Shown: piece by piece, positions 1,831 to 18,913 of the stretch
How positions within the stretch are numbered: position 1 is the stretch's first letter
Layout: the number at the start of each line of letters is the position of its first letter
Origin: a virus
IMG/VR virus record: IMGVR_UViG_3300046536_000093
Span: 1-32,022 of that record
Length of the DNA: 32,022 nt
Reading direction: 5' to 3' (one strand)
Program-made: the position numbers and the translations under genes
Notes under the pieces: model-generated
What the model saw: the letters and a program-made list of their open reading frames with translations, nothing else
What the model was told of the DNA's origin: nothing
Database searches by the model: none

Positions 1831-2256
1831 ATGGCGCGTCCGACGAAGCTGACGCCAGAGCTGATGACGGGCATCGTCACGCTCATCCAGCACGCCGTCC
1901 ATCCGACTGTGGCGGCGGCTTCGTTCGGTGTGGCATCGTCTACCTTCTTCGAATGGATCGCTCGCGGCGAAGGTCGGTCTGAGCGCGGCATGGGTGACCC
2001 TCTCTACATGGAGTTTGCGGATGCCGTGCGTGCGGCAGAGGACCAGGCCGAGTCCGCGTTGGTGCAACTCGCCATCACCAAGGCCAAGACGTCGGCCGAT
2101 GCCATCGCCATCCTCGAGCGACGGTTCAGGGATCGGTGGAAGCGGACCGATGAGGTGAGCGTCAACATCCGCCTCCTGGCAGAGAAGCTGGCGGGCGAAG
2201 GACTCGATCCGAAGGAAGTCATCGCCGAGGCAGAGCGCATCTTGAGCGAGGCATGA
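1831..2256 (+). CDS. terS: Terminase small subunit (HTH DNA-binding)
   Basis: This 141-residue protein starts with MARPTKLTPEL and a helix-turn-helix (about 10-50) in which a helix with the TVAAASFGV turn is followed by the recognition helix SSTFFEWIARG. This layout is typical of small terminase subunits, which recognise the phage packaging site and recruit the large subunit. A helical region (about 65-105) follows, likely for oligomerisation, and the C-terminal helix ends in ILSEA. Length suits the family (about 120-180). The gene directly precedes and overlaps the large terminase (ATGA at 2253), the standard order. A GAGGGG ribosome site is well placed before the ATG. Confidence 0.85.
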   Translation: MARPTKLTPELMTGIVTLIQHAVHPTVAAASFGVASSTFFEWIARGEGRSERGMGDPLYMEFADAVRAAEDQAESALVQLAITKAKTSADAIAILERRFRDRWKRTDEVSVNIRLLAEKLAGEGLDPKEVIAEAERILSEA

Positions 2257-3572: not shown

Positions 3573-3721
3573 ACTCCCCCTACATCGAGCCCGCCTACGC
3601 ACTCATCGTGGCCGCCGCTGCCTGGGTTTGGCCCCCCTTGGCCCTCGCAGTGGCGGCCCTCTACCTCATCGCCATCATCATCATCAACGACCGACGCGCT
3701 GTCCCAGAGGTGCGTGAGTGA
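3569..3721 (+). CDS. Tiny membrane protein between terminase and portal
   Basis: This 50-residue protein has a start ATG overlapping the terminase stop. A longer reading from an upstream start would sit inside the terminase gene and add an Arg/Gly-rich segment, so the overlapping ATG is preferred. Residues 10-39 are almost entirely hydrophobic with a Pro-Pro kink at 22-23, giving one long or two short membrane helices. The polar tail is DRRAVPEVRE. The end overlaps the portal start as GTGA. Function is unknown. A membrane protein in this position is not a standard part of the packaging module. Confidence 0.55.
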   Translation: MNSPYIEPAYALIVAAAAWVWPPLALAVAALYLIAIIIINDRRAVPEVRE

Positions 3722-5967
3722 GCATCAACGTCCTGCCGCGCACCATCGTCGCCAAGGCGTCCCCGATGGGACCGGCTGCCGGCATCCTCCAGACCGAGTA
3801 CCCGCTGATGTCCATCCTCGGCAAGCAGACCGAGCAGCAGAAGATGCAGATGGCGTGGAAGCTCGGGATCTCGGTGCCGTGGATACGCGCAGCCGAGCGC
3901 GTCATCGGCGGCGAGTTCGCGACCGTGCCGTGGCACCTCGAGGACGACAACGAGGAGACCATCGAGAAGGGCGACGCCTTCGACCTCATCGCCACGCCGC
4001 AGATGAACACGACGCTCGGCAAGAAGCTGACGCGCAACGACCTCTGGCGGCTGACGTGCCGGCACATGGGGCTGTGCGGCAACGCCTTCTGGTACCTCGA
4101 CGGGCTGAACACGTACGGCCAGCCGAACGCCATCCTGTACATCCGCCCGGATCGCATGACGCCCGTCGACGATGAGCAGGGCAACCTCATCGGCTGGCTC
4201 ATCGACAAGACGCAGAACGACCCCGGCATCGGCGTGCGCCTGGAGCAGATCGTCCAGTTCATGTTCGAGCCACCGGACGTCGGGCATTTCGGCATCGGCC
4301 TCGTGGAGTCGGCGCTGATGAAGGCGCAGCTTTCGACGGCGCTCGACCGCCATCTCGGCAACGTCATCGACGCGGGCGGCAGGCTGTCGGGCATCATGGC
4401 CCCGAAGGGCGGCGCGCTCGGGCCTGACCAGATGATGTCGCTCGAGCGCGACTGGCGCAGCGTGGTGGAGCAGGACAACGCGGCCAAGCGGCTCCAGCTC
4501 GTGGCCGCTCCGGTGGACTTCACCCCGACCACGATGACGCTCAACGAGATCGGCATCCGCGACCTCATCACCGGGGCTCGTGACGACCTGCTCGGATTGT
4601 GGGGCGTCCCGATCTCGAAGCTCGGCATCCACGACCGCGGCAAGGGGCTCGGCGCGTCGAACATCATCGAGAACGACGACGCGGTGCTGTGGATCGATGC
4701 CGTCAAGCCCCGACTCGGTGGGCATGACGAGGGCGGCTTCGTCGAGGCGGTGCAAGCGCTGCTCGACCGCTTCGCCGTCACCGACGGGACGTGCGAGCTC
4801 GTCATCGAGGAGCCGACCTTCGACGACGACGCACCGAAGTACGTCGAGGCACAGCAGGCGCTCAACCTCCCGCTCCGCAACCGCGAGCGCCGGGACATCT
4901 TGGGCCTCGAGCCGCTGGGCGACGACGTCATCAACCCCGAGACCGGGCTGCCGCTCGACGACGAGGTGTGGATGCCGATGACGATGGTCCGCGCGTTCAT
5001 CGCGCCATCCGAGGGCCAGCTGCTGCCGGCACCCGCCGCGGCGACGCCGATGGAGACCGACGCGGCAGGACGGGCAGCGGGTGAGACAGGCACGAGCGGC
5101 ACGGCGTCCGATACGTCCGTCAACGCGCAGGGCAGCGCGTTCGGCAAGGCCGATACCAGCGGGCTGCACCAGAGCCTCGTCAAGCTCCGCACCGGCATCG
5201 ACGCCCGCCTGACGCCACGGGTGCGCCGTGCGGTAGCCACGTTCCTCGACGAGCAGCGGCACGACATCGCGGAGCGCATCCGCAAGCACGCCGCGCACCT
5301 TGCATCCGATCCGGGCGACACGTCCGTCTGGTTCCCGGCCAACGTCTACGACAAGAAGCTCGCCGCCGCACTCGCACCATCGCTCGAGACGGTCGCTTCC
5401 ACGGTCTCGACGCACATCGGCACGGCCCTCCCGACGATGAAGGCGCAGCCGGTCGGCGGACCCGTCGACAAGGTGCTCCAGCGCGGCGCGGCACGGGTGA
5501 CGCGCATCAACCAGACGACACGCGACCGCATCCAGTCCATCCTCGCGTCGGGCGTGGCCGAGGGCTACACCGTGCTCGAGATCGCGGACGCCATCGAAGC
5601 CGGCGCGTCGAACCTCGTGGACAGCGTCCTCGGCAGCATCGGCACCGTCTTCGACGAATACCGCTCGGAGATGATCGCGCGCACCGAGCTGATGGACGCC
5701 TACAACGCCGCCGCGCTCGGTTCCTACTCCGACGCGGGCATCGAGATGGTCGAGGCCATCGACGGCGACCAGGACCAGGAGTGCATCGACCGCGTGGCGA
5801 ACAACCCGTACACCATCGGCGAGGCCGACGCGGAAGAGGATCATCCGAACGGCACGCTGGACTGGGTGCCGGTCATGCCGGGGATGGCGTCGCTCGGATG
5901 CATCACACCAGAACTGGTGCCCGACGACCAGGTGCCGTTCATCCTGCTCACGACTGGAGGAAGATGA
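3718..5967 (+). CDS. Portal protein fused to C-terminal MuF-like domain
   Basis: This 749-residue protein starts at GTG overlapping the previous stop. Residues of about 1-430 read as an HK97-type portal, the dodecameric ring through which DNA enters and leaves the head. Helical segments such as SVPWIRAAERVIGGEFATVP, a DRM/TPV region and the basal GVPISKLG motif are visible. A Pro/Ala/Gly-rich linker (about 430-480) leads to a helical region. From about 560 to 735 comes a MuF (minor head protein) domain with the ARTELMDAYN helix at 654-663, a conserved C-IDRVANNPY element and DHPNGTLDWVPVMP near the end. The common HPxCRC cluster is replaced, so the cysteine pair is missing. MuF proteins are ejected or structural head proteins usually encoded separately. 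Confidence 0.85.
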   Translation: MSINVLPRTIVAKASPMGPAAGILQTEYPLMSILGKQTEQQKMQMAWKLGISVPWIRAAERVIGGEFATVPWHLEDDNEETIEKGDAFDLIATPQMNTTLGKKLTRNDLWRLTCRHMGLCGNAFWYLDGLNTYGQPNAILYIRPDRMTPVDDEQGNLIGWLIDKTQNDPGIGVRLEQIVQFMFEPPDVGHFGIGLVESALMKAQLSTALDRHLGNVIDAGGRLSGIMAPKGGALGPDQMMSLERDWRSVVEQDNAAKRLQLVAAPVDFTPTTMTLNEIGIRDLITGARDDLLGLWGVPISKLGIHDRGKGLGASNIIENDDAVLWIDAVKPRLGGHDEGGFVEAVQALLDRFAVTDGTCELVIEEPTFDDDAPKYVEAQQALNLPLRNRERRDILGLEPLGDDVINPETGLPLDDEVWMPMTMVRAFIAPSEGQLLPAPAAATPMETDAAGRAAGETGTSGTASDTSVNAQGSAFGKADTSGLHQSLVKLRTGIDARLTPRVRRAVATFLDEQRHDIAERIRKHAAHLASDPGDTSVWFPANVYDKKLAAALAPSLETVASTVSTHIGTALPTMKAQPVGGPVDKVLQRGAARVTRINQTTRDRIQSILASGVAEGYTVLEIADAIEAGASNLVDSVLGSIGTVFDEYRSEMIARTELMDAYNAAALGSYSDAGIEMVEAIDGDQDQECIDRVANNPYTIGEADAEEDHPNGTLDWVPVMPGMASLGCITPELVPDDQVPFILLTTGGR

Positions 5968-7013
5968 TGGCTGAAGGCACACTCGGCGGGACGAAGATCA
6001 GCGACCTCCCGCGCTCATCGTTCGCATACTGCGAGCCCAACGGCGGGACCTGCCACTTCCCGATCCGCGACAAGAACGGCAAGGCCGATGCCGCGCATGT
6101 CCGCAACGCGCTGGCGCGGCTGTCGTCGTCACCGTTCGAGGCGAAGGCACGCCCGAAGGTCGAAGCGGCTGCGAAGGAACTTGGCATCGGCGAGCCGGCG
6201 GGCAAGGCGCTCGGCGAGCTGAAGGCCGAGCCGATGTCCACCAACCAGCTCGACAAGTGGCTGTCCGGTCGCATCCCCCGCCGCGTGCTGGTGCTCCCTT
6301 TCGGCGGTCCGATCCCGCGCGCAGGTGCGCCCTACGGCGTGGACATCGACGACGAGTGGTTCGATGAGCGCACGGACACCATCGACGGCCACGCCGCGCT
6401 CAAGGCGTCGAACCGCCGGCTGGTGGACTTCCACCACGAGCAGGACCCGACCGGCGTGATGAAGGGTGCCATCCTCGGGCACGTGGACATCGACGACGAG
6501 GCCGAGACCGTCAGCATCGACGGCAACGACTACGTCGGGCGCTGGGGCGATTTCTGGGCCAACGCGGGCGAGAAGCGCCGCCAGCTGGTCGCGTACCTCG
6601 AGAAGCGCAACGTGCCGCTGTACGGATCGAGCCAGGCGGCGTACAAGAAGGCCACCGGCGGCCACATCGACACGTGGCCGCTCATCCGCCACACCATCAC
6701 CACCTCACCGCAGAACACCTACGCGGTCGTGCCGTCCCTGAAGGCGATGTTGACCGCTCCGACCCTCGACGAGATACCGGCCGACGCGCTCAAGGCGCTG
6801 CTGGTCGGACTCGACACCCAGACGCAGGAACTTCTCCTGAACTCACCAGACGCGGCGGTGCAAGCTTCCGCGCTGGTCGGCGATGGGGCGGCGAAGGCAG
6901 GCCGGGTGCTATCCGCTAGGACTATCCAACGGCTGCAGGAGGCGATGGACATCCTCGATGCACTCGTGGCATCGGGAGCCGTCGTGCTCGCACCCGAACA
7001 GGAGAACACATGA
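5967..7013 (+). CDS. Prohead maturation protease with N-terminal DUF6582-like domain
   Basis: This 348-residue protein was assigned to ATG 5967 because GGAGG (5956-5960) lies six bases upstream; ATG 5964 is the alternative. Residues 12-75 match a short phage domain in which LPRSSFAYC, HFPIRDKNGKAD and AHVRNALARL precede a basic helix. It resembles DUF6582 by memory. Residues of about 105-260 look like the phage prohead serine protease group, which cleaves scaffold and capsid. Candidate catalytic residues are H156/H157 (VDFHHEQ), S221/S222 (LYGSSQ) and a GHIDTWPLIRHT element near 232. The C-terminal helical tail (310-340) may act as a scaffold-like segment. It sits between portal and capsid, the expected place. 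Confidence 0.75.
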   Translation: MAEGTLGGTKISDLPRSSFAYCEPNGGTCHFPIRDKNGKADAAHVRNALARLSSSPFEAKARPKVEAAAKELGIGEPAGKALGELKAEPMSTNQLDKWLSGRIPRRVLVLPFGGPIPRAGAPYGVDIDDEWFDERTDTIDGHAALKASNRRLVDFHHEQDPTGVMKGAILGHVDIDDEAETVSIDGNDYVGRWGDFWANAGEKRRQLVAYLEKRNVPLYGSSQAAYKKATGGHIDTWPLIRHTITTSPQNTYAVVPSLKAMLTAPTLDEIPADALKALLVGLDTQTQELLLNSPDAAVQASALVGDGAAKAGRVLSARTIQRLQEAMDILDALVASGAVVLAPEQENT

Positions 7014-8533
7014 GTGACTCAGAGGAAGCCCTCGAGAGGGCTGTCGAGGAGTTGACGGCGAAGCTCGGCAAGATCGCCGGGCGCGTCGAGGACTCCAGCG
7101 ACGGCGGCCGCAAGGCCGCAGGCATCGACGGACTGGCAGCCGTCACCAAGCAGATCACCGATGCCAGCGACGCCATCGAGCGGCGCGACCAGGCAGCGGC
7201 GAGCAAGGCCGAGCAGGAGCGCATCGACGACATCGTCGCCGACGCGGTCAAGGCGGCCGTCAAGGGCATCCGTGCACCGAGCGCCGTCGAGACGATCGGG
7301 CAGGGCAAGCCGCTGACGACGCAGCAGAGCCGCATGCTCCAGATGTCGGAGATCAGCTCCAGCCCGTATCTCAAGTCCATCTTCCGCGACTACCGCGCCG
7401 GGGAACTCATCCTCGGCATCCAGAACCGCCACGGCATCGGCGCGCACGGCTTCGACTCGGAGCTCGTGCAGACCGGCAAGGCGCAGCTGGCCGACCTCGG
7501 GCTCATGCACATGGGCGGTGCCGAGAAGGCTTCGACCTACGTCGAGTCGTACGGCGAGGTCGATCCGAACGACACGTCGGGCGGCTTCGGCAAGGCCACG
7601 ACAGGCGCGTCCGGGTCGACCGGCGGCTACGTCCTGCCGAACAACCTCGTCGATACGCTCGTCAAGCCGGCAACACAGCGAGCGGTGCTTCAGCTGATGG
7701 TCACCGTCCGCAACGGCGTCAACGTCCGCGGCGTCGACCAGCCGTATCGCCTCGGCGCTCCGGCCCGGATGACGTTCCAGGACTGGAACTCGTCCAAGGA
7801 GAACGTGAATGAGACCTACGGGTCTTACACCGCCAACCTCGGCACGCTCGCGCGTGTCATGGACATCACAAAGCAGTACGCCCGGTTCTCCGCAGGCAGT
7901 GCAGAGGCGGACGTCATCGACGAGCTGACCAGGGCAGCAGTCCTCGGCGAGAACTACTACATGATCGGCGGACTCGGCACCGGCTCTGTCGGCACCGGCG
8001 ATCCGACGACAGGCGTGTACACGGCGCTCAACGCCTCGGGCGTGGCCGCGTACAAGACGGCGTTCTCTCCGGTCGCCACGACCCTCGCGGGTTCGGCGGC
8101 ATCGGGCTTCGCATCGGCCATCGGGGCTCTCGCCGCGCGTTCGCGCGAGGCGTCGGGCATCGTGGTCGACTCGGTGACGTACTGGACCATCGTGGCGCAA
8201 GGAACAGATACAGCAGGATTTTGGACCGAGCCCGAGATCGGCCCGACCGGCTTCACCCGGACCTCGTCCGGTGCCATCTCGTTCTGGGGAGTCCCGATCT
8301 ACTGGGACGCCAACCTCACGACCGAGTCCACGTCCAAGATCGCGCTCATCGCGCAGTGGGACGTGCTCAAGCTGTACCGAGGCATGGAGTTCCGCATCGA
8401 CACCAGCGACACTGCTGGAACCCGATTTGATTACAATCTAATCGGTTTCAGGGGCGAGGAAGAGATTGGCTTCGACGCTCGAACGGCACTGGGTGTCGGT
8501 GCGTTGCAGCTGGTCACGGGCATCATCGCCTGA
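7010..8533 (+). CDS. Major capsid protein (HK97 fold) with N-terminal scaffold domain
   Basis: This 507-residue shell protein overlaps the protease gene by ATGA and has an AGGAG site upstream. Residues 1-100 are charged and helical (EALERAVEELTAKLGKI), resembling the delta or scaffold domain that the protease removes. From about 185 the HK97 fold begins with STGGYVLPNNLVDTLV, followed by LGTLARVMDITKQYARFS and the C-terminal strand WDVLKLYRGMEFRIDTSD. Length suits a capsid with an attached scaffold region. The last 40 codons use AT-rich triplets unlike the rest of the gene (8427-8452), just before the inserted endonuclease gene. Confidence 0.88.
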   Translation: MSDSEEALERAVEELTAKLGKIAGRVEDSSDGGRKAAGIDGLAAVTKQITDASDAIERRDQAAASKAEQERIDDIVADAVKAAVKGIRAPSAVETIGQGKPLTTQQSRMLQMSEISSSPYLKSIFRDYRAGELILGIQNRHGIGAHGFDSELVQTGKAQLADLGLMHMGGAEKASTYVESYGEVDPNDTSGGFGKATTGASGSTGGYVLPNNLVDTLVKPATQRAVLQLMVTVRNGVNVRGVDQPYRLGAPARMTFQDWNSSKENVNETYGSYTANLGTLARVMDITKQYARFSAGSAEADVIDELTRAAVLGENYYMIGGLGTGSVGTGDPTTGVYTALNASGVAAYKTAFSPVATTLAGSAASGFASAIGALAARSREASGIVVDSVTYWTIVAQGTDTAGFWTEPEIGPTGFTRTSSGAISFWGVPIYWDANLTTESTSKIALIAQWDVLKLYRGMEFRIDTSDTAGTRFDYNLIGFRGEEEIGFDARTALGVGALQLVTGIIA

Positions 8534-9071
8534 ACCGATTGATGTACTCGACCGCCGCGAGTAGCAAGGTCGGGTCATCGTAGAAGGAGCCGATACCGGT
8601 GTTGCAGGAATGGCAGAGCAGGGCACGAACGGAGCCGGTCACGTGATCGTGGTCGACGGCCAGTCGCACCGTCTCGCCATTCCTGTCCCGGTGGGTTTCG
8701 ATCTTGCCGCACACAGCGCATACGCCGTTCTGTGCGGCAAGCATTCCCTCATATTCACCGACGGTCAGACCGTACAATCGTCGCAGTCGACCGGCTCGGA
8801 GAGAGGCGCTTTTCTTCGCCGGATTGGCTTGCCGCCATCTCTCGGTGGCCTCGTTCATCCGATCCCGGTTCGCGGCGCGATACTCGCGGCCCTTGCTCTC
8901 ATACCATCGCCTCTGACCAGCCTTGTGCTCTTCGGGATGCGCGATGTTCCAGGCGTTCGCCTGTTCGATCAGATGTTCCCGATGAGCCAGATAGTAGGCT
9001 CGGTTGCGTGCCCGCCGAGTCTCGGGGTCCGTGCTTGGCATGGTTTCAGTATACACGGTTTCAGGCGATGA
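8443..9071. repeat. Short direct and inverted repeats bracketing the HNH gene
   Basis: CGGTTTCAGG occurs at 8443-8452, inside the capsid gene, and again at 9056-9065, just upstream of the endonuclease start. GGTTTCAG also occurs at 9042-9049. An inverted, one-base-shorter version, TCATCGCCTGAACC, lies at 8523-8536. It is the near-complement of GGTTTCAGGCGATGA at 9057-9071. The endonuclease gene is thus bracketed by related short sequences, as if duplicated during insertion or serving as the enzyme target. Between the two GGTTTCAG copies is the palindrome GTATAC, and on the minus strand TATACT could act as a -10 box for the nuclease. Confidence 0.6.
8523..9041 (-). CDS. HNH homing endonuclease, endonuclease VII-like
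   Basis: This is the only convincing minus-strand gene. The 172-residue protein starts at the ATG complementary to 9039-9041. A longer reading to 9203 would add an Arg/Cys-rich segment that is antisense to the next gene, so it was rejected. The basic N-terminal part (1-85) has repeated Arg/Tyr helices (RRARNRAYYLAHREHL) for DNA contact. Residues 90-168 match recombination endonuclease VII: YGLTVGEYEGMLAAQ, a zinc pair C108/C111, the catalytic DHDH at 130-133, a second pair C143/C146 and N147. It overlaps the end of the capsid gene tail-to-tail by 11 bases. Such free-standing homing nucleases cut alleles lacking them and spread by repair. Confidence 0.88.
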   Translation of the reverse strand: MPSTDPETRRARNRAYYLAHREHLIEQANAWNIAHPEEHKAGQRRWYESKGREYRAANRDRMNEATERWRQANPAKKSASLRAGRLRRLYGLTVGEYEGMLAAQNGVCAVCGKIETHRDRNGETVRLAVDHDHVTGSVRALLCHSCNTGIGSFYDDPTLLLAAVEYINRFRR

Positions 9072-9730
9072 CGGTCGGCATCTACTCGACGAACTTCTAC
9101 GACGGCACCGTCCCGGAGCTGCCGCAGTCTGCGCCGCGTACCCTGCTGACCGACCGCACGCATCGCATCGCGCCCGACGATCCGCGCATCTCCGACGTCT
9201 CATGGTGGAAGCCGACCGGACCCGGCGACAACTTCTACGGGCGCGTCCAGTCGGCGTGGTGGGGCTTCCATCCCGAAGCCGCGCTGCCTGGCGTGGACGT
9301 GACCGTCGTCATCGGGCAGAACTTCACGACGTACGTGCCCGACCTCGCGGAACGCTGTCTCGAGGAACTCGGCGACGACGACCTGCTGCTCATCCGCCAT
9401 CCGTGGCGCGACGACATCCTCGAGGAGGCCGAGGCATCGCTGGCAAGCTGGAAGTGGGACGAGCAGCCGGTCGTCGAGCAGGCGCAGTCGTACATCGACG
9501 CCGGCCATCCGCGCCATTGGGGCCTCTTCCACGGCGGCATGGTCGTCCAGCGCGACACGCCCGCCATGCGCGCGTTCAACGCGGCGTGGTGGGGCGAATA
9601 CTGCCGCTGGTCGAGCCAGAACCAGGTCAGCCTGCCGCCCCTGCTCCGCACGAGCGGGATCAAGTGGCACACCTACGACCCGTTCGCGCTCGGCTGGGTC
9701 AGCTGGGGACCGCTCGGAGTGGCGGCGTGA
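9068..9730 (+). CDS. DUF616-like (TOD1/MUCI70 type) glycosyltransferase
   Basis: This 220-residue protein was started at the first ATG after the endonuclease insertion. The frame is open further upstream, but only across sequence antisense to the endonuclease. Conserved features of the DUF616 group are seen in order: an N-terminal strand (VGIYSTNFYD), the acidic strand DDLLLIRHPWRDD (103-115), an EAEA helix, HWGLFHGGMVVQRD (150-163) and NAAWWGEYCRWSSQNQVSLP (171-190), where WW-E and the S-QNQ-S-P signature are typical. The family transfers sugars using a GT-A-like fold. It is the first gene of a dense sugar-transfer island between capsid and connector genes, and it overlaps the methyltransferase gene by GTGA. 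Confidence 0.72.
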   Translation: MTVGIYSTNFYDGTVPELPQSAPRTLLTDRTHRIAPDDPRISDVSWWKPTGPGDNFYGRVQSAWWGFHPEAALPGVDVTVVIGQNFTTYVPDLAERCLEELGDDDLLLIRHPWRDDILEEAEASLASWKWDEQPVVEQAQSYIDAGHPRHWGLFHGGMVVQRDTPAMRAFNAAWWGEYCRWSSQNQVSLPPLLRTSGIKWHTYDPFALGWVSWGPLGVAA

Positions 9731-10236
9731 GTGCGCTCGATGCGACCGACCTCCAGTCGTGGGCCGATGAGCAGGTGGACATGGCCCCGCACTACCGGAC
9801 GCTCACCCGGTACGCGCTCGAGTGCATCAGCATCGTGGAGTTCGGCGTCCGTGGCGGCGTCTCGACGTGGGCGCTCCTCGACGGGCTGCCGGCGGATGGA
9901 CTGCTGTACTCGGTGGACGTCATCGACTGCATCGTGCCGCCCCGTGTCTCGGCCGACCCGCGCTGGTTCTTCTTCGTGGGCGACGACCTCGATCCGGTCA
10001 TCCAGCGCAAGCTGCCGAAGTTGGCGGACCTCGTCTTCATCGACACCAGCCACACCTACGAGCAGACCGTCGGAGAATTGGCGTATGCGGCGACGATGAG
10101 GCCCGCTAGGATAGTCATGCATGACTACGTGATGGAGCCGGTGGCTCAGGCTGCGACGGAGTTCTGCGCGCGGGAGGGATGGGCCGTGGTGGACAACGAA
10201 CTGCCGTTCGGGCTAGCGACGCTGGTGAAGACGTGA
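9727..10236 (+). CDS. Class I SAM-dependent methyltransferase
   Basis: This 169-residue protein starts at a GTG overlapping the previous stop. Motif I VEFGVRGG (37-44) forms the SAM-binding loop, SVDV (62-65) ends with the ribose-contacting acidic residue, and ADLVFIDTSHTYE (100-112) is the motif IV region. VMHDY (131-135) is typical of the methyltransferase 24 family, which modifies sugars, sialic acid-like or small-molecule hydroxyls. Length is short but complete for that family. Between glycosyltransferase genes, it most likely methylates a sugar put on by the neighbours; the actual acceptor cannot be told. Confidence 0.78.
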   Translation: MSALDATDLQSWADEQVDMAPHYRTLTRYALECISIVEFGVRGGVSTWALLDGLPADGLLYSVDVIDCIVPPRVSADPRWFFFVGDDLDPVIQRKLPKLADLVFIDTSHTYEQTVGELAYAATMRPARIVMHDYVMEPVAQAATEFCAREGWAVVDNELPFGLATLVKT

Positions 10237-10508
10237 GCAACGGGTCTTCGCATAAGCGATCCTCGACGCGACATACATCCAGTCGTCGCGGCCATCCCCA
10301 GACGCCCAGCTACGCTCAGGCACTCGAACTTCGTAATCTCTTGCCGAGCCTAACGGCCAAGGTGACGCATACCAAGCCTTGTAAGCGATGCCAACAGGCG
10401 ACGTCTAGCGAGATGGAAGACCTGTGCATCAACTGTCTTCGGGGATACAAGACAGTCAGACCATCGTTGCGGGCACCACGACCTGAGCCAGGACCGAGGC
10501 TCCTATGA
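10233..10508 (+). CDS. Small basic zinc-ribbon protein
   Basis: This 91-residue protein starts at a GTG overlapping the methyltransferase stop. The first third is Ser/Arg/His-rich and probably disordered. A helix follows (YAQALELRNLLPSL), then a clean zinc ribbon CKRC (about 54-57) and CINC (about 69-72) separated by eleven residues. The tail is basic and Pro-rich. The DNA is noticeably less GC-biased here than in the adjacent glycosyltransferase genes, which suggests a separate origin. Possible roles are nucleic-acid or protein binding; it has no evident part in sugar transfer. Its end overlaps the next ATG. Confidence 0.6.
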   Translation: MSNGSSHKRSSTRHTSSRRGHPQTPSYAQALELRNLLPSLTAKVTHTKPCKRCQQATSSEMEDLCINCLRGYKTVRPSLRAPRPEPGPRLL

Positions 10509-11491
10509 GAGCGGCGCTGCTTCCGACACCGGGCGACCCGTTCATGCTCGCCTACTGGCTCCGCAACTTCGAGACGTGGCACCAGGAGGTCGACGAGCTG
10601 ATCGTCTACGTCAACGGCCAGCGCGACCCCGAAGCCGTGGCCTACGACCGGCGCATCATCGAGGAGCACGGCGGGCGGATGCTGTACTCACCCGACACCG
10701 TGGGCCATGACGGCGCGCTGCTCGGCCTGCTGCTGGAGACGAGCGCCGAGTACGTGGTGCTGTGCGAGGACGACGCCTACGTCCGCAAGCCGATCATGGT
10801 CGGCGTGTCGTTCGTCGGCATCGAGGACGGAAAGTACGACATCGTCGGCTCGCCCCGTCACGAGGACTACGCGGGCCAGACGATGGAGTGGGGGCCGTAC
10901 ACGCCCGGTGCCCTCGACGAACTGCGCCATGGGCTGTGGCCGGCGTTCCTCTTCGCGCGGCGGAACGACCTGCTGGCGACCGACCGCATCTTCGGGGATC
11001 GTGCCTGGCCGCGTGGCGGCAACATCCCCGGCTGGGGCTACGTCGGACCGGCGGCATGCGACTACATCGGCATCGCGGCCGAGTTCGTCCACCTCGACAC
11101 CTTCTTCGGGACGACCTTCCAGCTCCGCGCGGCGGGGCTGCGGACGCATCTCGTCCACCACGTCCGGCTGTACGACCCCAAGGCGACCGAGGACTGGCTG
11201 GCCGAGGACCCGCCGTGGTTCCACGTCACCGGTCTCTCGACGCTGCCGCCCGTCCTCGACGGCACCGATCCTGCGACATTGCCCGACATGGACGCCCACG
11301 GTGGGTTGTGGACGCGCCGGATGGCGTGGTGGGAGCTGGTGACGCAACGCGGGGCCGACGTTCCTGGCATGGCCGAACGATGGCGGATACTGGCTGACTT
11401 CCGACGGCGCTCCGGTATGCGGGCCGAGGACGATGAGGCATGGCTCCTCCGGTTCCTCAAGTGGGAACCACGTGCGATGGTGCCCGCATGA
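10505..11491 (+). CDS. GT-A (family 2-like) glycosyltransferase
   Basis: This 328-residue protein opens with a strand and nucleotide-binding region (ALLPTPGDPFMLAYWLRNF). It then has ELIVYVNGQRD (31-41) and the acidic metal-binding motif YVVLCEDDAYVR (83-94), in which EDD plays the DxD role that holds the sugar-nucleotide metal. A Trp/Gly-rich acceptor region (RGGNIPGWGYVG) and an HHV-RLYDP segment follow. These are the features of GT-A transferases. About 70 C-terminal residues form a helical extension. It is encoded in the middle of the island and overlaps both neighbours. Donor sugar and acceptor are not deducible. Confidence 0.72.
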   Translation: MRAALLPTPGDPFMLAYWLRNFETWHQEVDELIVYVNGQRDPEAVAYDRRIIEEHGGRMLYSPDTVGHDGALLGLLLETSAEYVVLCEDDAYVRKPIMVGVSFVGIEDGKYDIVGSPRHEDYAGQTMEWGPYTPGALDELRHGLWPAFLFARRNDLLATDRIFGDRAWPRGGNIPGWGYVGPAACDYIGIAAEFVHLDTFFGTTFQLRAAGLRTHLVHHVRLYDPKATEDWLAEDPPWFHVTGLSTLPPVLDGTDPATLPDMDAHGGLWTRRMAWWELVTQRGADVPGMAERWRILADFRRRSGMRAEDDEAWLLRFLKWEPRAMVPA

Positions 11492-12531
11492 ACGTCGTGC
11501 AGTGCCTCAGCCACTCCATCGAAGAGCGCGACATGCTCGACCTCTACACGCGCATCGGCGTGGACGCCTTCTCGGTCGGCGGCTACATCGACCCGCGCTC
11601 GCCGCACGATCCGAAGCGGCCGGCCGTCGGTAGCCCGTTCCATCCCGACCTCAAGGCGGCCGTGGACTCGCTCGGCCAGTACGACAACCTCGCCGCGGCC
11701 CAGGTACACCTGCCAGAGGCGCTGCTCGACTGGGCGGATGTCATCGTGTACCACCACCATCTCGACCGGCTGTTCGGGCAGTGGCCGCGCATCCGCCGCT
11801 GGCTCGACGAGGACTCGGGGCACCGGGTCATCTGGCGCAGCATCGGCCAGTCCGTGACGGGCAACGAGCAGGACGCCGCGCCGTTCATGGCGCAGGGCTT
11901 GGAGCGCGTGCTTTACTCGCCGAAGGAGCGCCACATCCCCGGCTTCTCGGGCGGTGACTCACCCGTCATCCGCTTCGGCAAGGACCCGGCCGAGTGGCAT
12001 GGCTGGACGGGCGAGGATGCGCGGGTGCTCAACATCAGCCAGCACGACGCGACGCCGCATGCGCGCGACGTCTGGCTCAACTGGGGCTTCTGGGAAGAGG
12101 CGACGGCTGGGCTGCCGCGCGTGTTCGCGGGTCCGAACTCCGAGAAGGTCGGCGGCCTCGGCACGCTCGAGCTCGACGACATGAAGGCGCTTCTGCGATC
12201 CTGCCGCGTCTACCTCTACACCGGCACGCAGCCCGCGTCGTACACGCTCGGGCTCGTCGAGGCGATGATGACCGGCATCCCCGTCGTGAGCATCGGGCCT
12301 GAGTGGATGCGGATATTCCCGTTCGGATCGCAGATGTTCGAGGGACATGAGCTGGCACTCGACTACGAGAACAGTCCTGCTGCGGCTCGGTCGCTTCTCG
12401 ATGACCACCTGTCGAACAGCCCGAACGTCTCCTACTCGGAGTTGCAGCGCGAGGGTGCCATCGAACTCTTCGGCATCGACACCATCGCGGACCAGTGGGC
12501 GGCGCTCCTCGGCGTCAAGGTGCCGGCATGA
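11488..12531 (+). CDS. GT-B (family 4-like) glycosyltransferase
   Basis: This 347-residue protein starts at the ATG overlapping the preceding stop; a longer in-frame reading would intrude into that gene. The N-terminal half has Rossmann-like strands including ADVIVYHHHLDRLF and HRVIWRSIGQS. The C-terminal half contains RVYLYTGTQPASYTLGLVEA (about 251-270) and MMTGIPVVS, the conserved loop and helix of family 4 enzymes that grip the nucleotide sugar. The canonical EGFG-xx-E is changed to ASYTLGLVEA, so the glutamate is kept. The next gene, a LuxR-like HTH protein, overlaps it. Confidence 0.78.
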   Translation: MNVVQCLSHSIEERDMLDLYTRIGVDAFSVGGYIDPRSPHDPKRPAVGSPFHPDLKAAVDSLGQYDNLAAAQVHLPEALLDWADVIVYHHHLDRLFGQWPRIRRWLDEDSGHRVIWRSIGQSVTGNEQDAAPFMAQGLERVLYSPKERHIPGFSGGDSPVIRFGKDPAEWHGWTGEDARVLNISQHDATPHARDVWLNWGFWEEATAGLPRVFAGPNSEKVGGLGTLELDDMKALLRSCRVYLYTGTQPASYTLGLVEAMMTGIPVVSIGPEWMRIFPFGSQMFEGHELALDYENSPAAARSLLDDHLSNSPNVSYSELQREGAIELFGIDTIADQWAALLGVKVPA

Positions 12532-12770
12532 TCGACGCGACGTACGGCCTCACCAAGCGCGAGTGGGATGCACTGAGCTTCGCCGCCGAGGGCATGAACT
12601 GTCGCGAGGTCGCGGCCGAGATGGGTATCGCGCTCCAGACGGCCAAGAACCACCTGCACGCGGCCTACGACAAACTCGGCGCGCGCAATCTCATCGAAGC
12701 CCTCAACATCGTCGGCTGGGTGCAGGTGCCGACGGCCCGCATCTCCCAGAAGACGTGGTCGGCAGCATGA
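12528..12770 (+). CDS. Small LuxR-type (GerE) helix-turn-helix protein
   Basis: This 80-residue protein is essentially one LuxR DNA-binding domain. Residues 8-60 read LTKREWDALSFAAEGMNCRE, then VAAEMGIALQTAKNHL and KLGARNLIEAL. The Thr-x-x-x-x-His recognition helix and the terminal KLGARN turn are textbook. No receiver, ligand or dimerisation domain precedes it, so it resembles the free-standing GerE-like regulators. It overlaps glycosyltransferase genes on both sides (ATGA), so it is cotranscribed and could regulate the island or host genes. A role as a small terminase-like or structural HTH is less likely. Its start is the ATG overlapping the upstream stop. Confidence 0.8.
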   Translation: MIDATYGLTKREWDALSFAAEGMNCREVAAEMGIALQTAKNHLHAAYDKLGARNLIEALNIVGWVQVPTARISQKTWSAA

Positions 12771-13753
12771 ACGTCCTCGCCGACCGCCACCACGCGGGAC
12801 TGTTCCACTCGCTCCAGCTCCTCGGCAAGCGGATGGGCTGGACTGTCTACGCCCCCGCGGGCATGGGCTGGTGGGACGAGTGGTACTGGTCGTTCGGGCG
12901 CTCGACCTACAACGACGACCGCCTCGCCGCGCAGTTCCTCCGACAGGAGCCCGGTGTGGATGGGCTGGGCCCGCTGCCCGATGGCGAGTTCCCCGACTGG
13001 CCGATCCCGACCGTGACGCTCGAGCAGGCGCGGCAGATGGACTGGGACTTCGTCATCGCCACGGTCCCCGACAACGAGCGCGGCTTCGCCCGGTTCGCGC
13101 AGGAGATGGGCGCGCAGTACGTCGTCCAGGTCGGCAATACCGGCCAGTACGTGGACTGGTCGCTCGCCCCGCTGGTGTTGTCGTCCTCGGAGTTCGATCC
13201 GGGGCACAACGGCATCATCTACCACCAGGAGATGGACCCGGTCGCCTTCGTTCCCCCCCGCGAGGTCACGGCCGGGTCCTATCTCCGCTTCGCCGCGTCA
13301 TTCGTGAACTGCATGCCCTCGATGGGCGCGTGCTACGACCTCCTCGCTCAGGTGCCGTTCCCGGTGGACGTGTACGGCATCGACGGCCCGCAGGGCATCG
13401 TCAAGCCGTACCGCGAACTGGTGCGGCTGATGGCGCTGTACGGCTGGGGCTGGCACGACAAGGCGCAGGGCGACGGCTTCGGGCACGTCATCCACTCATG
13501 GGCGGCGGTCGGCCGACCGCTCGTGGGCCATGCGGCGCACTATGCGGGCAAGATGGGCTCCGTCTTCTGGACGCCCGCCACGAGCATCGACCTGGCGCTC
13601 GGCGTCGAGGCTGCGGTGGAGACGATCCGCTCCATCTCACCATCCGCGCACTCGGCGATGTGCTACGCCATCCGCGAGGAGTTCGACCGCATCGACTACG
13701 ACGGCGAGGCCGAGATGATCGCGGACTTCCTCGGCGTGCGGGTGGCGGCATGA
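12767..13753 (+). CDS. GT-B-like glycosyltransferase
   Basis: This 328-residue protein starts at the ATG overlapping the HTH stop. The N-terminal region has a glycine-containing strand-loop (HAGLFHSLQLLGKRMGWTVY), as in enzymes that process glycan heads. Strands DFVIATVPD and QYVVQVGN follow, and the C-terminal half has PVDVYGID, VIHSWAAVGRPLVGH and a terminal helical region. The layout, with two Rossmann-like halves, fits GT-B. It lacks the clear EGFG-xxxxE signature seen in the next gene, so activity is less certain. Many Trp residues (GMGWWDEWYW) suggest sugar or carbohydrate contact. Function is inferred mostly from the island. Confidence 0.6.
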   Translation: MNVLADRHHAGLFHSLQLLGKRMGWTVYAPAGMGWWDEWYWSFGRSTYNDDRLAAQFLRQEPGVDGLGPLPDGEFPDWPIPTVTLEQARQMDWDFVIATVPDNERGFARFAQEMGAQYVVQVGNTGQYVDWSLAPLVLSSSEFDPGHNGIIYHQEMDPVAFVPPREVTAGSYLRFAASFVNCMPSMGACYDLLAQVPFPVDVYGIDGPQGIVKPYRELVRLMALYGWGWHDKAQGDGFGHVIHSWAAVGRPLVGHAAHYAGKMGSVFWTPATSIDLALGVEAAVETIRSISPSAHSAMCYAIREEFDRIDYDGEAEMIADFLGVRVAA

Positions 13754-14973
13754 AACTCCTGCTGTGGGGCGCGCTCGATGCCGGCACCGGCTTCGGCTCC
13801 GTGACGCTGGGACTCGGCAAGGCGTTCATGGACGCGGGCGTGGACGTGCGCTGCGTCGCCATCAACGACGAGCAGGCCGCTCCCGAGGGCTACACGGTCA
13901 TCGACCTTGGCGATCCGCGCTCGTGGATGCAGGCCGACCCCGCTGGCGGCGCGCTGGCGTGGCTGGCGCACGTCAAGCGCATCCTGGCGGGCGATGACGA
14001 CTGGCGGGCGGACGCCATCCTCGTGACCGGCGACCCGGCGAGCATCATCCGCTCCGACATCCCGTCGCTCATCCCCGACGGCATGGCCGCCTATCACTAC
14101 TGTCCGATCGAGGGAACGGGCATCCCGCCGCGCTGGGTCGAGATGTGGCGGAACATGACGCCTATCGCGATGTGCGAGTTCGGGGCGCAGGAGATATCGA
14201 CCATCACGGGCACCGTGCCGCCGTTCGTGTACCACGGCGTCTCCGAGGCGTTCTACCCCGTCTCGTCCGAGCGGCCCATCGTGCTGCGGACGAACGACGC
14301 CGGCGGCCTCAAGGTGCTGCGCTCCAAGGACGACTGCAAGCGGCTCTTCGGGGCGAGTCCCGAGACGACGGTGCTGCTGCGGACCGACCGGCTGATGGAC
14401 CGCAAGCGGTACGGCTCGATGCTGCGCGCGGTCGCGCCGGTCCTCGAGCGCCATCCCGACGTGCAGGTGTGGATGCACTGCCGGACGGTGGACGAGGGCG
14501 GCAACCTCGACGACATCCGCTCGCACTTCCCGCCCGACCTGGCACAGCGGATGCTGACGACCGGCTACCGGGATCGCGGGATGGCCGTTCCGCTCGACAT
14601 GCTGAACGCGCTCTACAACGCCGCCGACGTCTACCTCTCGACGAGCGCCGAGGGCTTCGGGCTCACCATCGCCGAGGCGGTGGCGTGCGGCGTGCCGGTG
14701 GTGGCGATGGACTACACGAGCGTGCCCGAAGTCGTCGGGCCCGCCGGGACGCTCATCCCTCCGGGCTTCCTCGTGGAGAACATCTACTCGTATGCGTGGG
14801 CCAACATCGACGAGGCGAAGTACACCGATGCGGTCGAGTTCCTGGTGACCCACAAGATGCGCCGCCGTGAGATCGGCAGGCTGGGCCCGAAGCACGCCGC
14901 GCGGTTCACGTGGACGGCGGCGGCCGAGAAGTTCCTCAGCATCATCGACGTCAAAGAGGCGGTGGCAGCATGA
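13750..14973 (+). CDS. Family 4 glycosyltransferase
   Basis: This 407-residue enzyme is the clearest transferase of the island. The N-terminal domain begins KLLLWGALDAGTGFGSVTLG (2-21), a glycine loop, and contains AYHYCPIEGTGIPP. The C-terminal domain has VLLRTDRLMDRKRYGSMLRA and then DVYLSTSAEGFGLTIAEAVA, where the EGFGLTIAE element provides the catalytic and UDP/GDP-binding glutamates. CGVPVVAMDYTSVPEVVG completes the signature. Length is right for glycos_transf_1 proteins. It starts at the ATG overlapping the previous stop and overlaps the connector gene downstream, so the island is translationally linked to the neck genes. Confidence 0.88.
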   Translation: MKLLLWGALDAGTGFGSVTLGLGKAFMDAGVDVRCVAINDEQAAPEGYTVIDLGDPRSWMQADPAGGALAWLAHVKRILAGDDDWRADAILVTGDPASIIRSDIPSLIPDGMAAYHYCPIEGTGIPPRWVEMWRNMTPIAMCEFGAQEISTITGTVPPFVYHGVSEAFYPVSSERPIVLRTNDAGGLKVLRSKDDCKRLFGASPETTVLLRTDRLMDRKRYGSMLRAVAPVLERHPDVQVWMHCRTVDEGGNLDDIRSHFPPDLAQRMLTTGYRDRGMAVPLDMLNALYNAADVYLSTSAEGFGLTIAEAVACGVPVVAMDYTSVPEVVGPAGTLIPPGFLVENIYSYAWANIDEAKYTDAVEFLVTHKMRRREIGRLGPKHAARFTWTAAAEKFLSIIDVKEAVAA

Positions 14974-15851
14974 CCGTGGCAGCCTGGCAGACCGGCCATG
15001 CTTACGTGGCGGGCGACATCGTGAACCCAACCGTCGCCAACGGCCACTCGTATCGCTGCACCGTCGGCGGCACCTCGGGCGGGACGGAGCCGACGTGGGT
15101 CGGTCGCTACCAGACGATCACGGACGGCGCGACCGTGACGTGGGTCGTCTACACCGTCATCACCCCGGCGCAGGTGCGCTCGCAGCTCGCGTTGACCGGC
15201 ACGACGGGCCAGTACGACGACACCGTCATCGGCGGCTACATCCTCGATGCTATCGGATCGCTCGAGCAGTCGACGTGGCGCTTCCTCGTCAACCGTCCGG
15301 GTGCCACGTACCAGACGACCTCGTACGGGCGCCCGATCCTGAACATCCCCGGCGTCCGCTCCGCGACGAACGTCATCTGGCTCTCCACGACGCAGACGGC
15401 ATCGGGCGCGAACCTCGGCAACGGCTACACCCTGCTCCCGGACGCCATGAACACGGGCGTCTACACCGGCATCCAGTTCCGGCCGCTGCACACCGAGGGC
15501 AACTATCCGTGGTGGCTCTCGCTCGGCGATGGGCGAAATTCCTGGTTTGATACGGCTGCGGATAATCCCTTCGACCCACGCAACTATGCGGCGGGGTACA
15601 TCTTCACCAGCGTCTCGCTCGACACCGCCATCACCGGCGACTGGGGCTACGAGCCGCTGTTCGAGCCTGGCAACTTCGTCCACGCGCTCGAGATACTGTC
15701 GGAGTGGTACGTGCTGCGGCCACCCGCCATCCTCGCGGACTCGGCCATCACCCCGGCCGGCGGGATCGTGTCGTATTCGCAGATGCCGCCAGAGGTGCAG
15801 CAGTTCGTCAAGGGCTTCTCGGCAGGGACGGGAGTGGTGAGCATTGGGTAG
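14970..15851 (+). CDS. Head-tail connector with N-terminal W/EPTW module
   Basis: The 293-residue protein starts at the ATG overlapping the glycosyltransferase stop. Residues 5-60 form a small repeat-like module (WQTGHAYVAGD, Y-x-C, GGTEPTW, TDGATVTWVV) that also occurs at the start of the protein encoded at 16489-17106. From about 64, ITPAQVRSQLALTGTTGQYD and then a helix with an E-x-x-T-W-R element match head-tail connector (gp6-like) proteins, which sit under the portal and bridge to the tail. Trp-rich segments and LEILSEWYV follow. Position just after the head genes agrees. The added N-terminal module may be exposed on the virion. Confidence 0.65.
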   Translation: MTVAAWQTGHAYVAGDIVNPTVANGHSYRCTVGGTSGGTEPTWVGRYQTITDGATVTWVVYTVITPAQVRSQLALTGTTGQYDDTVIGGYILDAIGSLEQSTWRFLVNRPGATYQTTSYGRPILNIPGVRSATNVIWLSTTQTASGANLGNGYTLLPDAMNTGVYTGIQFRPLHTEGNYPWWLSLGDGRNSWFDTAADNPFDPRNYAAGYIFTSVSLDTAITGDWGYEPLFEPGNFVHALEILSEWYVLRPPAILADSAITPAGGIVSYSQMPPEVQQFVKGFSAGTGVVSIG

Positions 15852-16488: not shown

Positions 16489-17106
16489 ATGACTGCACCC
16501 GCGTGGCAGGCCAACACCACGTACCTCGTCACCGCACGCGTCACGAAGGTCACGCCCGACGGGACGGCATGGTGGGCGACATCCGCGACGGGCGTCAGTG
16601 GCAATGTCGAGCCGACATGGCCGACCGTCGAGCCGTGGACCGTCGTCGACAACACCGTGACATGGGCGCTGGCATCATCCGAGCGGCAGCAGCAGGTGGC
16701 GGGGCTGCTCACCGTCCTCCAGACGTTCCAGGCGGCGAACCCGACGCTGCTGGTGCAGGTCTCCGCGTCCCGGCCGCGGTCGCTCACCAACGCCTCGATG
16801 CCGTTCGCGTACGTCGGGGATCGTGACGAACAGATGGACGTCGGGTCGCACATCCGCACCCGCACCTTCACGGGCCTTCAGGTCATCGTGTGTGACGTGA
16901 CTCCATCCAACATCGAGTCCGAGGCGCGCATGGACTTCCTCGTAGATGGCCTCGTCGACTGCTTCACCAAGTACTACCACGCGGCGTCGTCGCGCGCCCT
17001 CACCAACCCGTCAGGAGTCAATGGCTTCCAGCCCCCGGAGGAAGGCTTGTACTGCCAGCTCATCAGCATCGGAGATACCCAGTCGACGATGGGTACCGAC
17101 GCCTAG
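16489..17106 (+). CDS. Tail terminator with N-terminal W/EPTW module
   Basis: This 205-residue protein starts at an ATG 13 bases after the previous stop; a longer reading would overlap that gene. The first 60 residues (PAWQANTTYLV, SGNVEPTW, VVDNTVTWALAS) repeat the module of the connector protein encoded at 14970. From about 64 the pattern of a tail terminator appears: VAGLLTVLQTFQAANPTLLV, then PFAYVGDRDEQMDV, a beta strand TFTGLQVIVCDV and a helix with EARMDFLVDGLVDCF. Tail terminators cap the growing tail tube and contact the neck. Position just before the tail tube gene supports this. Classification is by position and pattern. Confidence 0.58.
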   Translation: MTAPAWQANTTYLVTARVTKVTPDGTAWWATSATGVSGNVEPTWPTVEPWTVVDNTVTWALASSERQQQVAGLLTVLQTFQAANPTLLVQVSASRPRSLTNASMPFAYVGDRDEQMDVGSHIRTRTFTGLQVIVCDVTPSNIESEARMDFLVDGLVDCFTKYYHAASSRALTNPSGVNGFQPPEEGLYCQLISIGDTQSTMGTDA

Positions 17107-17175: not shown

Positions 17176-18198
17176 ATGACGACTCTGACCCCGATCGCGG
17201 GCGTCACCCGGCTCCGGGCGTTCCAACTGGGGCTAGAGACGACGCCGCTCACCTCCCACGCTGCCACGCGCCGGATGCCGTGGGCGTTCCAGCCCACCGT
17301 CAACCCCAACTGGACATTCGTCACCGCCGACACCGGCACGCTCGACGAGGCCATCGCGCCGTATCGCCTGGCCCTCGATGTCACCGGCACGACGACGGGC
17401 GAGCTCTACGCCAACGACGTCCCGACGCTCGGCTCGGCGGGCATCATGGGCGGCATCTCGGCCGTCGGCGCGGTCGCCAAGTCGTGGACGTACGCACCCG
17501 CCTCGACGTCGCAGGATGTCCTCGACACGTGGACGGGCGAGTGGTTCGACGATGCCACGGCCGACGCCTTCTCGGGTGCCGGCGGCGTCATCAACGACTT
17601 CACGCTGACCTACCCGAACACGGGCGGGATCATCACCCACACCGCCAACTGGCGGTTCGCCTCGGTCACATACCCCGCGACCCCGACCGGCGCATTGTCG
17701 GTCGATGCCGCACCGACGCCGCTGTACGCCACGGACACCACGCTGTCGGTCAACGACACGGCGGGCGCAATCGGCACGACCGTCTTCACCAACCAGGTCT
17801 ACGACATCGCGCTCACGCTGAACAACAACCTCGACATCAAGCGGTTCGCCAACGGCTACTCGACGCGCTTCCAGCTCAACGGCTACTCGCGCGGACCGCG
17901 CACGTTCGACCTGACCATCACCTTCGCGCAGGCCACCGCGGCCATCGCCGAGACGGTCAAGTGGCTGGCGGTCGCACCGTCCGAGCGGTTCTTCCAGATC
18001 GACACCGTCTCGACGGCTCTGGTCACGGGTGCCACGCCCTACGAGATGCGCTGGCGCATCCCTGGCTACTGGTTCACCCGGACCGACACGACCATCAACA
18101 CCAACGTCGGCTTCCAGCTGATGGCCCACGGCATCTACGACACCACGCTGACGTACCCGTTCCAGCTCTACACCGTCGGCTCCCGGTCGACACTGTGA
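17176..18198 (+). CDS. Major tail tube protein
   Basis: This 340-residue protein is rich in Thr, Ala, Gly and beta strands. It carries the sequence features of siphovirus tail tube proteins: a C-terminal region with FQLNGYSRGPRTFDLTITFA (about 236-255) and a strand RWRIPGYWFTRTDT, plus many short aromatic strands. The tube polymerises from this subunit around the tape measure. A strong GAGGAG ribosome site (17166-17171) precedes the ATG after a 69-base gap, consistent with high expression. It is followed by the small gene and chaperones seen in standard tail modules. Confidence 0.78.
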   Translation: MTTLTPIAGVTRLRAFQLGLETTPLTSHAATRRMPWAFQPTVNPNWTFVTADTGTLDEAIAPYRLALDVTGTTTGELYANDVPTLGSAGIMGGISAVGAVAKSWTYAPASTSQDVLDTWTGEWFDDATADAFSGAGGVINDFTLTYPNTGGIITHTANWRFASVTYPATPTGALSVDAAPTPLYATDTTLSVNDTAGAIGTTVFTNQVYDIALTLNNNLDIKRFANGYSTRFQLNGYSRGPRTFDLTITFAQATAAIAETVKWLAVAPSERFFQIDTVSTALVTGATPYEMRWRIPGYWFTRTDTTINTNVGFQLMAHGIYDTTLTYPFQLYTVGSRSTL

Positions 18199-18437
18199 GC
18201 ACGCTTGAGCCCTTCCGATACCCGAAGCTCCGCATCGAGGTGCCAGGAGGTCGGACGGTCCTCACCAAGGTCACGCTCGACGGCAGGATGTTGCCGGCGA
18301 CCCGCGTCTCGTTCGACAGCGGAGACGTATCGAAGCATGACGGCGGCGTGGTCAAGGTCCGGCTGGAGTTCTACGCGGACATCGAACTAGATGCCGACCT
18401 CCCGCTCGCTGTCACCGGGATCGAGGCGCTAGCGTGA
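18195..18437 (+). CDS. Small hypothetical protein of tail module
   Basis: This 80-residue protein starts at a GTG overlapping the tail tube stop; a long reading from upstream is a shadow of the tube gene. It reads mostly as beta strands with basic residues (LRIEVPGG, LTKVTLDGRMLP, VKVRLEFYADIELD), and has no cysteine or membrane segment. It ends in GIEALA and overlaps the next GTG. Its position between tail tube and chaperones suggests a small tail assembly or immunoglobulin-like accessory protein. No family is recognised. Confidence 0.55.
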   Translation: MSTLEPFRYPKLRIEVPGGRTVLTKVTLDGRMLPATRVSFDSGDVSKHDGGVVKVRLEFYADIELDADLPLAVTGIEALA

Positions 18438-18913
18438 CCGCGAATGTCGAGGTGGCGGTCCCGCGCGGGACCGTCTACCTCATCCCGGTCCTGTCCAACC
18501 CGATGGCGATGGGCATGCTGGCCGCGATGGAGGGCACGCCGGCAGACGTGCCGTCCATGACGGCCACGTTCGTCGCCGTCGCGTTCCAGCCGGTCCCCCG
18601 CGGTGCCATCGCGGGCTGGTCGTTCATGGAGGGCGAGCCGCTGCCCGAACCTGTCCCGGTCACCGACGAGAACATCGCACGCCTCCTGGGATGGACGCAG
18701 GGTGGCAAGGAGGTCGCTGAGAAGTGCAGCGAGCTGTACACAGCTGACCTCTTCGCCCCTTTCACGGTCGGACCCAAGAGGTCATCGCGGCGTACGCCGA
18801 CGGATCACTTGACATCTCAGACCCGCAAGTCTGGCTCGCCTCGCCCGAGGCAGTCCAAGCCATCCTCGCCCAACGGTTCGGCTGGGATGTCGTCCGTGGC
18901 CCCGGCCCGCTGA
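18434..18913 (+). CDS. Tail assembly chaperone, short form (gpG-like)
   Basis: This 159-residue protein starts at a GTG overlapping the previous gene. Residues 1-110 look like a real folded protein, beta then helical (ENIARLLGWTQGGKEVAEKC). From residue 111 the sequence turns into an Arg/Ser/Pro-rich tail (KRSSRRTPTDHL), which is typical of reading the next gene in the wrong frame. This is the unshifted product. In siphoviruses the short chaperone and a frameshifted longer version share the N-terminus and coat the tape measure during tail assembly. The stop here is unusually far past the slip site, about 50 codons. Confidence 0.72.
   Translation: MTANVEVAVPRGTVYLIPVLSNPMAMGMLAAMEGTPADVPSMTATFVAVAFQPVPRGAIAGWSFMEGEPLPEPVPVTDENIARLLGWTQGGKEVAEKCSELYTADLFAPFTVGPKRSSRRTPTDHLTSQTRKSGSPRPRQSKPSSPNGSAGMSSVAPAR

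Follow-up and report, generated by a model that had tools for sequence, protein, structure and literature searches.

The IMG/VR virus record IMGVR_UViG_3300046536_000093, which is 32,022 bp long, linear, and possibly incomplete, was analyzed over its full length (the window). Between its major capsid gene and its head-tail connector gene lies an island of eight plus-strand open reading frames (ORFs; 9068-14973) rich in predicted glycosyltransferases (GTs). The last of these, GT4b, occupies this slot in every distinct complete interval examined among relatives, and the remaining genes are exchanged between phages. The island and its two borders are as follows.

7010-8533, plus strand: HK97-fold major capsid protein, left border of the island (PHROG 10, E = 1.3e-17; 46 capsid relatives in IMG/VR)
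9068-9730, plus strand: gtA, a TOD1/MUCI70-like (formerly DUF616) GT (PF04765, E = 0.0014, sub-threshold)
9727-10236, plus strand: S-adenosylmethionine (SAM) methyltransferase of the Methyltransf_24 family (PF13578, E = 1.4e-6)
10233-10508, plus strand: tentative gene for a 91-residue, zinc-ribbon-like protein with two CxxC motifs (sequence motif)
10505-11491, plus strand: GT2-like (GT-A fold) GT with an EDD motif (AlphaFold pLDDT 84.7)
11488-12531, plus strand: GT4a, a divergent GT4-like enzyme (Pfam GT1/GT4 models, E = 0.0045)
12528-12770, plus strand: 80-residue GerE/LuxR-type helix-turn-helix (HTH) protein, a private accessory gene (PF00196, E = 1.1e-11)
12767-13753, plus strand: GTB, a divergent GT-B-fold GT (AlphaFold pLDDT 88.4; TarM Z 21)
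13750-14973, plus strand: GT4b, a canonical GT4 GT (EGFGLxxxE) and the one gene constant in the slot (PF13692, E = 7.6e-15)
14970-15851, plus strand: head-tail connector (adaptor/neck), extended at its N-terminus by a CBM5/12-like stretch; right border of the island

All eight junctions, including that of GT4b with the connector at 14970, are 4-bp start-stop overlaps, and a gene caller that uses codon usage and was trained on this phage group recovers every island gene except the CxxC protein. An earlier interpretation made from the DNA letters (the sequence-only reading) had listed these genes and their overlaps; all are present at 9068-14973, with assignments provided by Pfam, by family members, or by AlphaFold, and the overlaps extend into the connector. 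The same reading had the island separating capsid from connector, and this is accurate on the connector side; on the capsid side a reverse-strand gene intervenes, with a homologue in a relative (relatives' contigs and loci carry L-numbers here).

8523-9041, minus strand: endonuclease VII-like (His-Me finger) gene (PF02945, E = 8.3e-22; homologue 62% identical in the same slot of L021)

Because of this gene the capsid and the island are not translationally coupled, and the island is thus coupled on the connector side and not on the capsid side. The L021 counterpart (11388-11912, minus strand) is directly 3' of the L021 capsid gene, and HNH genes are present in the slot in L002, L052, and L053. 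A plus-strand ORF at 8610-9071 was considered as a head gene and rejected, as it scores as non-coding and overlaps the endonuclease gene. The transcript that the island shares with structural genes in the sequence-only reading is putative; scans for promoters and terminators gave no signal beyond chance.

The enzymes range from canonical to highly divergent. GT4b has both glutamates of the EX7E motif (E301 and E309 in 27/27 sequences), and its profile also matches the solved chlorovirus GT B736L. GT4a is weakly matched by Pfam in the window and clearly so in one family member (E = 9.6e-7); at its EX7E position the pattern is A..E, with A250 and E258 invariant in 19/19, and it thus departs from the motif. 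GTB has no Pfam or PHROG match, and a scan of bacterial genomes with it gave none, but its model has a two-domain GT-B fold that superimposes on TarM with Z 21.0 and an rmsd of 3.0 over 283 residues; other fold matches are GtfA, SdgB, HepE, BshA, and T4 AGT at Z 17 to 19 (Z 17 for T4 AGT). In the GTB family neither EX7E glutamate is present: the first position is D236 and the second varies, and D236, H240, and H243 are invariant in 22/22; for both GT4a and GTB these positions were assigned by motif, by eye. The GT2-like protein has no significant Pfam match in the window, and Pfam GT2 is significant in just two of the seven members of its family, but in the Protein Data Bank its model best matches GT-A enzymes (Z 14.4, 186 residues aligned), and the DxD-like EDD at residues 88 to 90 lies in a region conserved in A9. 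A gtA homologue in L005 (39% identity) matches PF04765 above the cut-off (E = 3e-7), and the methyltransferase shares 72% identity with its L002 counterpart and 70% with that of L005. The sequence-only reading had given the island its own regulator, which we do not see as a conserved feature: the HTH protein is an HTH with no sensor or receiver domain and has a single weak relative in the other loci (L012, 32% identity), and the CxxC protein has no homologue among the relatives' loci. The two are thus private extras and not a conserved regulator.

Neither the window DNA nor its capsid protein has a match among 50,697 phage records, and searches of isolated phages with nucleotide and protein queries (capsid, GTB, GT2, GT4a, and FkbM from a relative) were negative as well. 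Relatives were recovered from IMG/VR by several routes. A single-sequence capsid scan found none, but a capsid profile found 46, a GTB query three contigs, and a connector profile 19; a GT4b-profile scan matched 233 contigs, of which the best 80 were taken. The three GTB-query contigs have GT4a, GTB, and GT4b in the same slot, with capsids that are just 34 to 42% identical. In the capsid-based set, the window and 27 contigs (L047 and L048 among them being near-identical) have a complete interval, and GT4b is present in each of these 28, and also in two further contigs that wrap round their ends, assuming that these are circular; it is upstream of 19/19 connectors from the connector-profile search. 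The merged set includes contigs found via GT4b, a bias that does not affect these capsid- and connector-based counts; in it, after removal of near-identical capsids, GT4b is in 47/47 complete intervals (2.2 to 9.2 kb), directly before the connector in 43 of them. In L024, a DNA cytosine-methyltransferase-like gene (17847-18479; PPCQ motif, by eye) lies between GT4b and the connector.

The near-universal presence of GT4b does not fit the description of the island as inserted, since a GT4 gene is in the slot of every distinct complete interval. The sequence-only reading had named as counterevidence, if combined with unmodified virion proteins, any relatives with the same capsid and connector and no island, and such relatives were found only in part: in L047/L048 GT4b is alone and everything else of the island is absent, and no relative among the 47 lacks GT4b between capsid and connector. 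The accessory enzymes are therefore dispensable for the lineage, and GT4b is never absent. More distant GT4b relatives (about 31 to 34% identity; L160, L161, L164, L166, L167, and L168) adjoin other large phage genes and not this connector, some with GMD upstream; these represent a second phage group with its glyco-locus elsewhere.

Around GT4b, the cassettes are of two main types. Type A (29/47) combines GT4a with GTB and in most cases FkbM, and the order FkbM-GT4a-GTB-GT4b recurs; type B (17/47) opens with a GT2 (family c13) and frequently has a further GT-A-like gene (family c23) at its end, and L047 is the sole GT4b-only cassette. The relatives' cargo includes GDP-mannose 4,6-dehydratase, a cytidylyltransferase, GT2 enzymes, SAM methyltransferases, FdtA ketoisomerase, GNAT, SDR, KAS III, asparagine synthase, a GDSL hydrolase, UDP-sugar dehydrogenase, FkbM, hexapeptide acyltransferases, and HNH genes. 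The richest cassette, at 12170-16511 of L015, codes for FdtA, GNAT, SDR, and a KAS III ketoacyl synthase, a gene content that suggests an acylated amino sugar as its product.

The cassettes have moved between capsid lineages. Types A and B change at least four times on a quick capsid tree, with all four changes forced by well-supported branches (13.8 with shuffled labels), and the window capsid falls in a clade of mixed cassette types. The window methyltransferase, GT2, and GTB are 62 to 72% identical to L002 and L005 genes, compared with 41 to 42% for capsids and 31 to 36% for connectors. Among 26 type A taxa, pairwise distances correlate for capsid and connector (rho = 0.61), capsid and GT4b (0.65), and connector and GT4b (0.68), but not for capsid and GT4a (0.06) or capsid and GTB (0.03), and the pattern is the same in a smaller set of 15 taxa. 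GT4a and GTB thus do not follow the capsid phylogeny, whereas GT4b does within type A. In 17 type B taxa rho is 0.01 for capsid and GT4b versus 0.59 for capsid and connector, and GT4b is therefore exchanged there too. We note, then, that a strictly co-inherited GT4b core holds for the type A taxa and is rejected for type B; the presence and position of GT4b do not vary, but its lineage sometimes does. The endonuclease VII-like and HNH homing-type genes in the slot could promote cassette exchange. The window also codes for an ERF-family single-strand annealing recombinase (26594-27472; Pfam, E = 1.7e-17), consistent with recombination-prone exchange.

We propose that the capsid-connector interval is a virion-glycosylation slot with exchangeable glycan chemistry, the acceptor being a candidate virion protein, and estimate the probability of this at roughly 70%. 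A glycan on a virion protein is favored because of the fixed link to head genes, the cytoplasm-type enzymes, the sugar-nucleotide genes, and the capping enzymes. The enzymes would act in the cytoplasm during late expression and would assemble, from nucleotide sugars, a short glycan with a methyl or acyl cap, attached to one of the abundant virion proteins (capsid, tail tube, or fibre). GT4b would provide the step common to all members, possibly the first sugar, with the variable enzymes extending and capping the glycan, such that a cassette swap would present a new particle surface chemistry on an unchanged capsid. The sequence-only reading had likewise favored virion decoration with a methylated sugar, and this is partly supported: it is the best-supported interpretation, to which the relatives add acyltransferases and sugar-nucleotide genes. 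Tentatively, the interval may be a virion serotype locus resembling a bacterial O-antigen locus, a fixed site where recombination in the head genes on either side, assisted by homing-type endonucleases, exchanges complete glycan cassettes across the lineage; the constant GT4 would then prime the glycan on a head or tail protein that is itself conserved.

Several observations weigh against virion glycosylation. The lineage is uncultured and known here from its genes; profile homology to Che8 gp108-110 is absent, except that one family of the relatives has a weak GT-A similarity; the exchange of GT4b in type B departs from a constant core; and the gene neighborhood alone is also compatible with a host-surface target. 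Nor would the predicted folds tell the acceptor, and reading it from them was rejected, since protein, teichoic acid, and DNA transferases (TarM, GtfA, SdgB, HepE, and T4 AGT) score alike at Z 17 to 21. In favor of a host-surface target, the top fold match of GTB, TarM, is a wall teichoic acid GlcNAc transferase, TarP is among the structural matches of the GT2-like enzyme, and GT genes located within structural modules have elsewhere been read as host-surface remodelling (PMC8008677). By this account the target late in infection is a glycan of the host cell surface, whose remodelling would exclude superinfection or keep progeny off debris, as with gtr serotype-conversion genes and as suggested for the Gratiaviridae. 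We consider this improbable, as the slot is tied to head genes, GT4b overlaps the connector gene by 4 bp, and GtrA (PF04138) is in none of 17 possibly incomplete records (0/17), with the control search giving matches in 7/14 genomes. In addition, no multi-spanning flippase, polymerase, or ligase was noticed among 234 interval genes in a simple hydropathy screen, with Pfam applied to part of them.

The endonuclease genes in the slot of the window, L002, L021, L052, and L053, and the many cassette genes found in one phage only, raise the question of whether the slot simply tolerates moron genes that homing-type endonucleases have spread, with sugar enzymes that have no function in common. This is very unlikely given the presence of GT4b in 47/47 intervals with an invariant EX7E motif, the recurrence of the type A gene order, and an assignable cargo that is nearly all glycan chemistry. 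Least plausible, and by our judgment most unlikely, is glycosylation of hypermodified DNA bases, which the T4 AGT match of GTB and a thymidylate-synthase-family gene (PF00303) in the L047 record might indicate; the family is in only that one of the 17 records, being absent from the window and 15 others, although these may be fragments. Moreover, sugar-nucleotide synthesis and acyl- and methyltransferases in the cassettes are expected for an oligosaccharide, and the coupling is to head genes.

Upstream of the capsid the window has the following genes.

1831-2256, plus strand: small terminase
2253-3572, plus strand: large terminase
3718-5967, plus strand: portal with a MuF-like C-terminus
5964-7013, plus strand: putative protease/scaffold

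On the plus strand the capsid is followed by the island, the connector, tail genes, the tape measure, and a collagen-like fibre. The connector has no Pfam match as an adaptor, and its identity as a homologue of an annotated HK97 gp6-type neck protein comes from a weak profile match to that of phiPsal1 (17.5 bits, E = 2e-6, with 14 proteins searched). Its N-terminal extension matches CBM_5_12 (E = 2.3e-4) and is present only in the window (14970-15160) and L006 (11805-12000); a stretch resembling it (APAWQANTTYLV...) recurs at about 16489-16680 of the window.

Among potential acceptors, the fibre-like protein at 23048-24397 has collagen-like repeats rich in Gly-Ala-Thr and is a possible O-glycan acceptor. 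Collagen-like Gly-X-Thr repeats were rejected as a universal acceptor, being seen in 12 loci only, with many loci too short for the test. About a dozen relatives code directly 3' of the capsid for short, often Thr/Pro/Ala-rich and apparently disordered proteins (e.g., L002 4243-4416, L012 9206-9385, and L004 2583-2819), which may or may not serve as acceptors or decoration proteins.

The sequence-only reading had drawn its analogy from actinophages; an actinobacterial host is not supported. In one genome for each of about 85,000 bacterial and archaeal species, capsid relatives were found in two only, both contigs of Chloroflexi metagenome-assembled genomes, with one further strong match among 400 Chloroflexi genomes. 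The capsid relatives L059, L060, and L066 are in Chloroflexota assemblies, on short contigs (8.7, 3.2, and 4.8 kb) for which binning error is possible and which give no prophage integration junction. We regard Chloroflexota as a lead to the host group and not as a result.

In this diverse and uncultured lineage a GT stays fixed among the head genes while the rest varies, which suggests a natural pressure to diversify the surface chemistry of the particle. A GT4 gene between capsid and adaptor may serve as a genomic signature for glycosylated virions, and the natural variants, including a one-gene minimal version, provide material for testing coat function.

Phage virion glycosylation is known from a few mycobacteriophages. 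Capsid and tail proteins of Che8, Corndog, and Myrna are reported to be glycosylated (PMC12363180 and PMC12619734, both of which cite Freeman et al. 2023), and for the cluster O phage Corndog, gp35-gp38 (an O-methyltransferase, two GTs, and a GlcNAc-transferase) have been proposed to modify the capsid (PMC4351075). In Corndog, as in the window, phage-encoded GTs and a methyltransferase sit inside the head module, but the Corndog block lies between portal and protease, as does the GT/methyltransferase block of S-CBS4, rather than between capsid and connector. The tested Che8 GTs gp108-110 have no significant profile match to GT4b or GTB, with the relatives' c23 family weakly similar to gp109 (E = 3e-4). 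The lineage described here differs from both Corndog and Che8 in the exchange of content across a diverse lineage and in the sugar-nucleotide synthesis genes of relatives.

The layout, described as unusual in the sequence-only reading, is itself precedented. The Pontimonas phage phiPsal1 (MG835450) has the order capsid, GT4, methyltransferase (minus strand), GT2, neck, and the Microcystis phage Mae-JY09 (PP395641) capsid, hypothetical, GT4, GT-A-like, epimerase-like, hypothetical, adaptor. Their GT4s are homologous to GT4b (82 and 65 bits with the GT4b profile) and in the same slot, although their capsids are not detectably related by profile. The phiPsal1 paper has no discussion of the layout, leaving the precedent unremarked, and we found no paper among the open-licence literature that describes the capsid-connector slot as a conserved, exchanged locus. 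Parallels also come from viruses of eukaryotes. The chlorovirus PBCV-1 capsid is glycosylated in the cytoplasm by a virus-encoded GDP-mannose dehydratase, GTs, and a methyltransferase, and antigenic variants differ in the glycan (PMC7019647); PBCV-1 is an algal virus with an unrelated capsid, and the analogy is one of mechanism only. Similarly, clade-specific clusters for nucleotide-sugar synthesis and GTs decorate the particle fibrils of the Megavirinae (PMC10117803), although these are giant virus clusters of 6 to 33 genes, unrelated in particle and location to the capsid-connector slot.

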